A stretch of 64,000 nt of DNA, taken from contig NC_020829.1 in assembly GCF_000349845.1 (NCBI RefSeq), positions 4,037,001 to 4,101,000 on the forward strand, read 5' to 3'. Of this stretch, positions 14,359 to 61,818 are shown one piece after another. The notes beneath the pieces were generated by a model. That model made no database searches. It was not told the DNA's origin and was given only the letters and a program-made list of their open reading frames with translations. This DNA comes from Pseudomonas sp. ATCC 13867. Its GTDB lineage: Bacteria; Pseudomonadota; Gammaproteobacteria; Pseudomonadales; Pseudomonadaceae. Numbering within the stretch: position 1 is the stretch's first letter; each line of letters opens with the position of its first letter. Made by a program: the position numbers and the translations under genes.

Positions 14359-14479
14359 GTGAACTCACTCCGCCGCTCTCACCCGCGCGGCTCTGACCGA
14401 AAAAGGCAGGCGGAGGACGGTAGCGCCCCGGCGGTCGATCCGCCGGAACGCTCGACAGCGCCCACCGCGATGCCATGAC

Positions 14480-14692
14480 ATGCAGCAGGCCGGTCTCCGG
14501 GCTTGCGAGTGGGCCGTGACAGGCTCCTGAAACCGCGCCTTCCCATGCCGATGGCACAGTGGCGGAATGCGGTTCGATGCTCGCTTACCGTTGCGGGGGC
14601 AGCGCCGGACTGGTCGGACCGCGAGGTCGGACTTCACCGGCTTCCCTGTTTCACCCCCGACTTGCACCGGGGGCACCTGAAGCAGGCGCGCA
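14480..14692 (-). promoter_or_regulatory. Cobalamin (B12) riboswitch in the btuB leader
   Basis: Read on the minus strand, the region shows the conserved blocks in order: aggtgcccccggtg at the 5' end (about 14692), gggaagccggtgaa, gctgccccgcaacggtaa, the B12 box gccactgtg with gggaaggcg, and cccggagaccggcctgctgc at the 3' end (about 14482). This matches the class I adenosylcobalamin riboswitch. About 120 nt separate it from the btuB start. It should lower expression of btuB and the biosynthetic genes when coenzyme B12 is plentiful. Confidence 0.95.
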
Positions 14693-14717
14693 GCTTAGTG
14701 GCTGTCGCCAGCCACGG

Positions 14718-38523: not shown

Positions 38524-38928
38524 GGATTTATCCGCCAATCGCTTGGTAGACGGGCTGATCGCGGACGGAGTCCGCTACGAGATATATCTGCGCTCGGGGC
38601 GGCCCTCAGCCTCGGCTTTGGCATCCTGCGTCGCTCTACCTCCTGCATCCATGCAGTCGTCTCCCAGGGGGAGAGGGGACCGTTCGGCGCAGGAGGAAAT
38701 CTCGGTCTCAGCCGGCACGGTCTGCCCTCTCTCCCTGAGGGAGAGGGTTGGGGTGAGGAGGAAGCGCTGGCACAGATCGCCCAGAAGTAGGCAGTTGCTC
38801 CTACGGAAGAACGCCAGGCGATCCCGCTCTTGTAGGAGCGAGCTTGCTCGCGAACCCGCTTGATGCTGGAGTCACCGAAAACATCGGCTCGCGAGCAAAC
38901 TCGCCCCCACGAAGAGCCTTCCCCAGGG
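38524..38928. repeat. Non-coding stretch with a mosaic of three repeat families
   Basis: No gene is supported in these 405 bp. They hold a degenerate second-family REP arm (38561-38580, gcggacggagtccgctacga), a ctccctgagggagag-type inverted element (38661-38761) and a main-family REP pair (38832-38910) whose right arm has diverged. The stretch separates the convergent DedA and anti-sigma genes. Its three families side by side suggest repeated insertion at a tolerant site. Confidence 0.8.
38661..38761. repeat. gggagag-type inverted intergenic repeat
   Basis: The arms ctcccagggggagagg (38661 onward) and cctctctccctgagggagag (38725 onward, followed by ggttggggtgagg) face each other. This is a second, GC-rich repeat type often seen between Pseudomonas genes. 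It is not related to the REP units on either side. Confidence 0.7.
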
Positions 38929-39168
38929 TCAGCGCCGCGAATGGTCCCGTCGCAGCTCGGCGAGATGCGCGGCGAGCAGGTCGGTGTCCGCGCCGGATTT
39001 CTCCGGCAGCGCGCGCAAAGTAGCCTGGGTCAGCCGCATCTGCCGCAGGTAACGCCGACAGTTGCGACACAGCAGCAGGTGCCGGCGCAGCGCCAGCTTC
39101 TCGCGAAAGCCCAGTTGCTCATCCAGCAGGTCGCTGGAGCGTGCCACCAGTTCCTTGCAGGTCAGCAT
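38929..39168 (-). CDS. Small zinc-finger anti-sigma factor
   Basis: This 79-residue protein has the ZAS zinc-binding signature in RRHLLLCRNCRRYLRQ (H-x3-C-x2-C, residues about 30-37) and an N-terminal Cys in MLTCKELVARSSDLLDEQLG. There is no membrane segment, so it would act as a soluble, possibly redox- or zinc-responsive, inhibitor. The start overlaps the ECF sigma gene end by 7 bp, which fits co-translation of a sigma/anti-sigma pair. Confidence 0.85.
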   Translation of the reverse strand: MLTCKELVARSSDLLDEQLGFREKLALRRHLLLCRNCRRYLRQMRLTQATLRALPEKSGADTDLLAAHLAELRRDHSRR

Positions 39169-59125: not shown

Positions 59126-59335
59126 TCAAGGGATCCCACTCAGCGCCCAGGTGACGCCGCAGAGAATCAACACGAACAACGAGCAATCGAACAACGCTTC
59201 GTGCCAGATCCAGCGGCCGAAGGGCGTAGCCTGCAGCAGCAGGCGCAGTACCACGGTCAGGCCCAGGGCCAGCACGGCGTAGATGAACAGCGGGCTGAGG
59301 TAGACACCGCCCCAGCCGACCTCATGCAGGCCCAT
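59126..59335 (-). CDS. DUF1656 small inner-membrane protein
   Basis: This 69-residue protein has two hydrophobic helices (PLFIYAVLALGLTVVLRLLL and FDCSLFVLILCGVTWAL). The order FUSC-DUF1656-HlyD is the standard AaeX/YdhI context, so this is the small subunit of the exporter. Its start overlaps the end of the FUSC gene by 14 bp; the stop is 13 bp from the hlyD start. Confidence 0.9.
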   Translation of the reverse strand: MGLHEVGWGGVYLSPLFIYAVLALGLTVVLRLLLQATPFGRWIWHEALFDCSLFVLILCGVTWALSGIP

Positions 59336-61430: not shown

Positions 61431-61459
61431 AAAAAAAAACGGGCGACCTAAGTCGCCCG
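61431..61459 (-). terminator. Rho-independent terminator of the ccoM/phrS-like RNA
   Basis: cgggcgac-ctaa-gtcgcccg (61440-61459) is a perfect 8-bp stem. On the minus strand it is followed directly by nine T's (61431-61439). It ends the transcript starting near 61639. Confidence 0.95.
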
Positions 61460-61639
61460 AAGTGCCTTGCGTGCTCTGTGTATCTGGAAGGTCAACCGCG
61501 CTTGTGCGAGTCCTTCCAGATGAAATATCCGACCCCGCCGAAGAACAGAACCATGAGTCCTACGGTAACGATGCCTGCGAGAACCACTTCGTCGATGAAC
61601 ATGATGCTGGCCTCCTATTTGCCTACATCGTCTGGGGAT
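61432..61639 (-). ncRNA. phrS: PhrS-like ANR-controlled RNA (predicted)
   Basis: A predicted transcript of about 208 nt runs from a promoter with -10 taatct (61651-61646) to the terminator at 61431-61459. P. aeruginosa PhrS is about 213 nt, needs ANR, encodes a 37-codon ORF and lies between the PA3305 and alkB (PA3306) region, as I recall. Here the order, the ORF of 37 codons including stop, the ANR box and the length all match. The 3' part (61440-61491) is the non-coding segment. Whether it regulates a target such as a pqsR-like mRNA is not shown. Confidence 0.75.
61492..61602 (-). CDS. ccoM: CcoM-like small membrane subunit of cbb3 oxidase
   Basis: This 36-residue single-helix protein, too short for ordinary gene finders, reads MFIDEVVLAGIVTVGLM, then VLFFGGVGYFIWKDSHKRG. 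The pattern of a short N-terminus, one helix and a YFIWKD basic tail resembles CcoM, the small subunit found in the P. stutzeri cbb3 cytochrome c oxidase. A perfect aggagg Shine-Dalgarno lies 8 bp upstream. The ANR box means expression under low oxygen, which fits a high-affinity oxidase. The gene is also the ORF of the PhrS-like RNA. Confidence 0.8.
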   Translation of the reverse strand: MFIDEVVLAGIVTVGLMVLFFGGVGYFIWKDSHKRG

Positions 61640-61672
61640 GTGTGCAGATTACCGGCGGCCGGACAGGGCAAA

Positions 61673-61686
61673 TTGACCTGGATCAA
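61673..61686 (-). promoter_or_regulatory. ANR (FNR-type) box
   Basis: ttgacctggatcaa matches TTGAT-N4-ATCAA with one difference from the ideal. Its centre (61679.5) is about 40.5-41.5 bp upstream of the start predicted from the -10 element taatct (61646-61651), the class II activator position for FNR-type proteins. Confidence 0.85.
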
Positions 61687-61818
61687 TGGTCGACAAGGCG
61701 CTTTCCGGCGAGGGCCGGAGCACTGACGCAGGTCAACTTAGCGAAAGGGGTAGGTGCGGCGGGAAGCCGCGTGGGACGGTGTTTCTGACGAAAAAGGGGT
61801 GGGTAGGGGCAGGAAAAA

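Follow-up and report, generated by a model that had tools for sequence, protein, structure and literature searches.

The PhrS small RNA locus of Pseudomonas sp. ATCC 13867 is, by sequence, also ccoM, the gene of a cbb3 oxidase subunit

Results and discussion

Organization of the locus

The window analysed here, a stretch of 64 kb from Pseudomonas sp. ATCC 13867, carries on its minus strand a 208-nt PhrS RNA (Rfam RF01673, 61432-61639) with a predicted start near 61639. Upstream of it are a -10 hexamer TAATCT (61646-61651) and an FNR/ANR-type box, TTGATCCAGGTCAA (61673-61686, no strand assigned). Since the Rfam model spans 61432-61639, the centre of the box lies 40.5 bp upstream of the first base of the model; FNR-type boxes are usually centred at about -41, and the spacing at this locus agrees with that value. 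The RNA contains a Shine-Dalgarno sequence AGGAGG (61611-61616) with a start codon 8 nt further on, and an ORF of 36 codons (61492-61602). Behind the ORF follow a pairing element known as creg, GCACGCAAGGCA (61463-61474, RNA nt 166-177), a terminator stem GGGCGAC-TTAG-GTCGCCC (61441-61458), both recognized by fold and sequence, and a run of nine Ts (61431-61439) corresponding to the U tail. The pattern TTGAY-N4-RTCAA has a single match in the whole window, which is the box itself (0.05 expected), and GCACGCAAGGCA likewise has one match versus 0.05 expected. Neighbouring genes encode a FUSC-type transporter (PF04632), a 53-codon product with no family match, and an AlkB-type oxygenase (PF13532) that stays under the cut-offs of two NCBIfam AlkB models.

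The original prediction had described the box, the -10 hexamer, the AGGAGG-led ORF of 36 codons and the terminator stem with nine Ts, and all of them were recovered at their positions. The proposed transcription start, about 40-41 bp from the box centre, coincides with the first base of the PhrS model, and the proposed transcript of about 208 nt equals the length of the Rfam match, as predicted from sequence. Two features had been missed, namely creg and a stem joining the last codons of the ORF to the 3'UTR. Of 80 distinct ccoM/phrS sequences from Pseudomonadaceae, 79 have a box of FNR/ANR type no more than 100 nt before the start codon; in the remaining one it lies at -101. This conserved box supports ANR as the probable regulator of the RNA, as had been proposed. 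Given box conservation and the purifying selection described below, sequence comparison confirmed that the layout of signals is beyond chance.

Identity as PhrS and as CcoM

The covariance model RF01673 identified one PhrS in the window, with 180.1 bits against a gathering threshold of 37 and over its full length (positions 1-212 of 212), which bears out the earlier identification as PhrS. The product of the ORF, previously called CcoM-like, scored 77.6 bits with NF041600, the NCBI equivalog model for CcoM (cut-off 40). Its nearest solved chain was 5djq_N (E 1.5e-14, residues 1-35 aligned), deposited under the name 'putative uncharacterized protein', which we take to be CcoM of Pseudomonas stutzeri within the cbb3 oxidase structure 5DJQ. 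A Pfam search of the same product returned nothing significant (best E 0.2). The ORF inside PhrS is the one copy of CcoM over cut-off in this genome, which has four matches to ccoN and is thus a cbb3 host, as expected for CcoM. The designation 'CcoM-like' can be raised to CcoM on the support of these family models, and family models identify the locus as both ccoM and phrS.

For P. aeruginosa, a 2021 review says of the conserved 37-aa peptide encoded by PhrS that its function 'has so far remained elusive' (PMC8395346), and a 2022 review describes the peptide in much the same way and places creg at nt 169-182 (PMC9308961). The locus described here resembles that PhrS in its full-length match to the covariance model, its ANR-type box, its terminator and its internal ORF. 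It differs in an ORF of 36 instead of 37 residues and in a creg at nt 166-177, which is the same place allowing for one codon fewer, as well as in the identification of its peptide as CcoM; the likeness is established through the Rfam model and the published positions. Compared with CcoM of P. stutzeri (5DJQ chain N, NF041600), the length is equal, residues 1-35 align and the score lies well over the cut-off. One article (PMC10433244) reports CcoM of P. stutzeri as a cbb3 subunit of 36 aa; its available text does not mention PhrS. Among the papers listed by literature searches pairing PhrS with CcoM, none joined the two, and the link was likewise absent from the accessible parts of PMC3272035, PMC12491237 and PMC8450116, which name PhrS and cbb3. 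It may nevertheless have been noted already, in the 2016 CcoM, 2011 PhrS or 2023 interactome papers or in RefSeq annotation via NF041600.

PhrS has been studied intensively in P. aeruginosa, and the identity of its peptide as CcoM offers a directly testable answer to what the peptide does. It also connects a regulatory RNA of low-oxygen conditions with an oxidase that serves under those conditions. A deletion of phrS also removes an oxidase subunit, so mutant phenotypes may have two causes.

Selection on the ORF

Selection was evaluated on distinct sequences extracted from the best-scoring fetched loci and from 20 loci picked for breadth, a sample that is not random. It comprised 80 sequences from Pseudomonadaceae (including L155 and L156, counted with this family) and 22 from other families. 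Among the 80, pN/pS was 0.30 in frame versus 1.40 and 1.55 in the other two frames, for which few stop-free pairs were available (15 and 820 of 3160). The third codon position was the most variable at 29 of 33 codons. These substitution patterns indicate that the ccoM ORF is under purifying selection, so that the possibility raised with the original prediction, an ORF free of selection, does not apply. Selection at the protein level, as a dual-function RNA would display, is thus found. A pure sRNA with an ORF arising by chance would fit the listing of PhrS as an sRNA in Rfam and the existence of ORF-less forms; this explanation is contradicted by in-frame purifying selection over 80 sequences, and by homologous ccoM genes outside Pseudomonadaceae that have no pairing element, and its probability is negligible.

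Association of CcoM with cbb3 oxidase

The distribution of the three components was examined in a family sample of 198 Pseudomonadaceae genomes, with PhrS and CcoM called at E <= 0.001 and ccoN at E <= 1e-50. PhrS was found in 192 genomes, CcoM in 174 and ccoN in 177; six genomes had no PhrS match at this threshold, and the weak matches in G012 and G041 looked spurious by eye. CcoM and ccoN occurred together in 171 genomes and were both absent from 18, while six had ccoN only and three CcoM only. Fisher's test gave p of about 1e-17, a value uncorrected for kinship (13 of the 21 ccoN-less genomes came from one genus) and computed from a table in which five negatives were inferred from absence among the positives. 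The CcoM-only genomes were G039 (78% complete), G099 and G113, and the ccoN-only genomes included G037 (87% complete) and G027, in which the CcoM-like ORF is truncated to 22 aa (MVDNMIFAGVITACLMVAFLGN, L068). Elsewhere in the same order, CcoM was found in 65 of 280 genomes, all 65 with ccoN, versus 216 of 280 overall.

Taken by co-occurrence, the coupling of CcoM to cbb3 appears strong, not absolute. It is loose in places, as seen from five ORF-less genomes with intact ccoN and from two cbb3-less genomes, G099 and G113, with an unrelaxed ORF. Relaxed selection was expected in the latter two and was not seen, their ORFs differing by 14 synonymous and 8 non-synonymous changes. These two groups of genomes are what might be found if the peptide descended from CcoM had another or an additional membrane job, which would account for its loose loss with cbb3. 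The strong overall co-occurrence of CcoM and ccoN speaks against such a job, as do the equivalog-level match and the presence of a close homologue among the chains of the solved cbb3 structure 5DJQ, and we regard it as unlikely.

A further truncated form may exist in genome G010, where two PhrS-like copies (L065, L083), both followed through to creg and a terminator, are separated by about 0.7 kb; the 28-aa ORF in one of them resembles a truncated CcoM.

A stem shared by the last codons and the 3'UTR

In the predicted fold of the window RNA, the Ile-Trp-Lys codons of the ORF and part of an Asp codon (61512-61521) are paired with the ten bases that directly follow the stop codon (61482-61491). 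Over the 80 Pseudomonadaceae sequences, duplexes formed by a species' own two arms reached -11.81 versus -10.29 when arms were swapped between species (sd 0.19; 0 of 50 swaps as strong). When the ORF arm was slid along the gene, excess pairing appeared at codons 25-35 alone (z -6.6, -7.2 and -7.4), and the other 13 of the 16 windows showed no excess of own pairing (|z| < 2). Covarying arms are exemplified by CGGGA/TCCCG in L231, GTTAGAAAAGA/TCTTTTCTAAC in L233 and ATCTGGAAAGAC/GTCTTTCCAGAT in L009. Own pairing exceeded pairing with species having different codons in 59 of the 80 sequences, hence not in all. Outside Pseudomonadaceae the longest runs comprised 4-7 pairs, close to the mean of 5.15 obtained by shuffling, although L177 reached -13.0 kcal/mol. 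This covariation indicates that the last codons of the ORF and the 3'UTR form a stem. Ribosomes at the stop codon would open it, from which we infer that translation may tune the RNA.

The pairing element and its targets

According to reports including PMC8395346 and PMC9308961, ANR drives phrS in P. aeruginosa and PhrS acts there on pqsR, antR and a CRISPR leader. In the window RNA, as in PhrS, creg lies downstream of the ORF; its accessibility in the predicted fold is moderate, with a mean unpaired probability of 0.58. A 2025 review states that PhrS down-regulates cyoAB. That creg acts directly against the rival bo3 oxidase as its conserved target was considered but not supported, as the 3' segment of the window RNA gave no consistent signal with 16 cyoA start regions. 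In this comparison, which used the window's segment for all loci and not each species' own PhrS, one of the 16 loci reached p 0.02 (mononucleotide shuffle) and the others were at 0.22 or above. Of 24 genomes, four lacked any cyoA match, and in another four the match was weak and below cut-off. The exact complement of creg, TGCCTTGCGTG, occurred at 51 places in 12 genomes (phrS itself once per genome) versus 11 for the reversed pattern. Of the 51 places, 30 were assigned to loci; phrS accounted for 12 of these, and by eye no gene was common to the remaining 18. Neither the cyoA nor the exact-complement search yielded a conserved target. One exact complement of creg lies at position 1501 of L140 (G154), 24 nt before the start of a response-regulator-like gene, in that one genome only.

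PhrS RNAs that have lost the ORF

A covariance search of 22 odd genomes returned several that match model positions 168-203 alone. At these loci, creg and a terminator are preceded by an ANR-type box, a -10-like hexamer and a short hairpin, which leave no space for the ORF. A pattern scan for the box 41-101 nt before creg, run on a genome collection of 84,980 species by its description, gave 30 stretches, of which 18 were ORF-less PhrS with a terminator and 12 were attributed to chance by eye. The 18 include P. oryzihabitans (four records), P. rhizoryzae, P. viridiflava, P. poae, P. trivialis, P. typographi and P. triticifolii; in P. fluorescens PS910 (L096) just the end of the ORF remains. 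The pattern-scan set and the family sample described above overlap, some handles and named records being the same genome (G054 is G209, P. poae).

In 17 of the ORF-less genomes (the metagenome-assembled genome with L100 was left out), ccoN was absent from ten, interrupted by an internal TGA in two and intact in five. The interrupted genes are the sole ccoN matches of G200 and G206 (Pseudomonas sp. KNUC1026 and URIL14HWK12:I12), both of which have an ORF-less PhrS. No CcoM over cut-off was found elsewhere in the seven ccoN-bearing genomes or in two of the ten ccoN-less ones. P. oryzihabitans is described as oxidase-negative (PMC5362990).

The pattern-scan set was picked by its box and creg and therefore cannot measure their retention. 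An unselected count is provided by one genus of the family sample (g6), in which PhrS was matched in 13 of 13 genomes, ccoN in 0 of 13, and CcoM was absent from 11 of 13. Nine of these 13 sequences were inspected: six were ORF-less, G099 and G113 had an intact, diverged ORF, and G091 had a broken ORF with creg in place. The RNA part is accordingly kept independently of the ORF in the 18 ORF-less cases and in g6, as would be the case for a dual-function RNA.

If transcription is assumed to start 34 nt beyond the box, RNAs of this ORF-less kind are 58-105 nt long. Most fold into a hairpin, creg and terminator; the hairpins differ between lineages, and a clear one is missing in L100 and L119. From the differing remnants and flanks, compared by eye, the ORF losses were judged to be distinct events. 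Among 33 listed loci, alkB adjoins just three (L062-L064, with the ORF intact in two and broken in one), and a FUSC-type gene adjoins a subset.

These forms bear on whether the locus is an mRNA for CcoM and nothing else, whose 3' end would be conserved for its own stability, for Hfq binding or for termination. The missing conserved creg target in the genomes searched and the moderate accessibility of creg would suit such an mRNA. Its 3' end, however, outlives the loss of the ORF together with an ANR-type box, so the 3' end is not serving the ORF alone, and the actions on other RNAs credited to PhrS in P. aeruginosa also tell against it. We consider this explanation improbable. The ORF-less descendants provide a natural separation of the two functions, and may record an mRNA becoming a regulatory RNA.

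Relative age of the ORF and of the RNA module

An FNR-type box lies at most 100 nt upstream of ccoM in 19 of the 22 distinct sequences from outside Pseudomonadaceae, and neither GCACGCAAGGC nor CGCAAGGC occurs within 110 nt after the ORF in any of the 22. Extending this to 300 nt, L185 alone has CGCAAGGC, at about 230; in the near-identical L188 and L190, GCAAGG stands by itself at 42, and no T-run follows closely. Within Pseudomonadaceae, GCACGCAAGGC follows the ORF in 71 of 80 sequences and CGCAAGGC in 76 of 80, and the core GCAAGG followed by a T-run within 55 nt was present in all 80. This distribution suggests that the ORF predates the RNA module, and a gain in Pseudomonadaceae would be the simplest reading; loss of the pairing element in the other families is a possible alternative. 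RF01673 scores ccoM genes of other families above gathering, although those inspected have no creg, so that automatic 'PhrS' labels outside Pseudomonadaceae can mislead.

One genus (g5; L047, L051, L053, L226 and L227) has a variant pairing element, GGCTCGCAAGGCC, together with a different terminator stem, the variant element hinting at a target shift in that genus. In family f20, eight of nine loci examined (L177, L185-L191) have a tRNA-Glu gene immediately downstream of ccoM. It is on the opposite strand, which rules out ccoM running into the tRNA gene on one transcript.

Proposed function and origin

A shared box, conserved coding and pairing parts and separable histories are observed at this locus. 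They lead us to regard it as highly probable that an ANR-driven ccoM mRNA acquired a 3' end that became the sRNA PhrS, that both outputs are used, and that the module later came to exist without the ORF. At low oxygen, ANR bound at 61673-61686 would drive the 208-nt RNA, as the conserved box suggests and as is reported for phrS of P. aeruginosa. The middle of the RNA, more than half of its length, would be translated into a one-helix CcoM joining cbb3, an identity given by family models and a role transferred from P. stutzeri. Its end would act as a compact sRNA module made of the codon/3'UTR stem, creg and the terminator with its U tail, and creg would base-pair with other RNAs, by analogy with pqsR in P. 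aeruginosa. A shared promoter means that the oxidase part and the regulator would be made together, and we infer that both outputs of this one low-oxygen RNA work in the species of the window. Historically, an FNR-controlled ccoM mRNA would have gained the module in Pseudomonadaceae; the ORF would later have been lost, often with cbb3, and the module would have kept its ANR-type box and persisted as an ORF-less sRNA.

A more far-reaching reading, to which we give an even chance, is that the birth and independence of PhrS can be read in living genomes, from an FNR-controlled mRNA through a two-in-one RNA to an ORF-less sRNA of roughly 58-105 nt, the last in lineages such as P. oryzihabitans where the protein was given up, commonly together with cbb3, and with the oxygen-sensing box kept throughout. 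It would include a switch: the last codons fold the module, so ribosomes ending translation could set its state.

SgrS/SgrT is a dual-function RNA, and CpxQ and SdhX are sRNAs born from mRNA 3' ends, mostly by cleavage. VcdRP of Vibrio cholerae is also described as a dual-function RNA. As in VcdRP and SgrS/SgrT, a small protein and a base-pairing part reside here on one RNA; unlike them, the protein is an enzyme subunit that seems to predate the function of the RNA, and descendants without the ORF were found. What CpxQ and SdhX have in common with this RNA is a terminator-bearing 3' module that acts separately from the coding sequence, whereas here some lineages are without the coding part and have kept the ANR-type box.

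Rfam also matched other RNAs on the minus strand of the window. The P18 sRNA (59177-59311, 85 bits, gathering 60) lies 2.1 kb from PhrS, immediately beyond the FUSC-type ORF at its 3' end. The Pseudomonas sRNA P17 is at 38912-39158 (92.9 bits) and a cobalamin riboswitch at 14471-14695 (108.8 bits).
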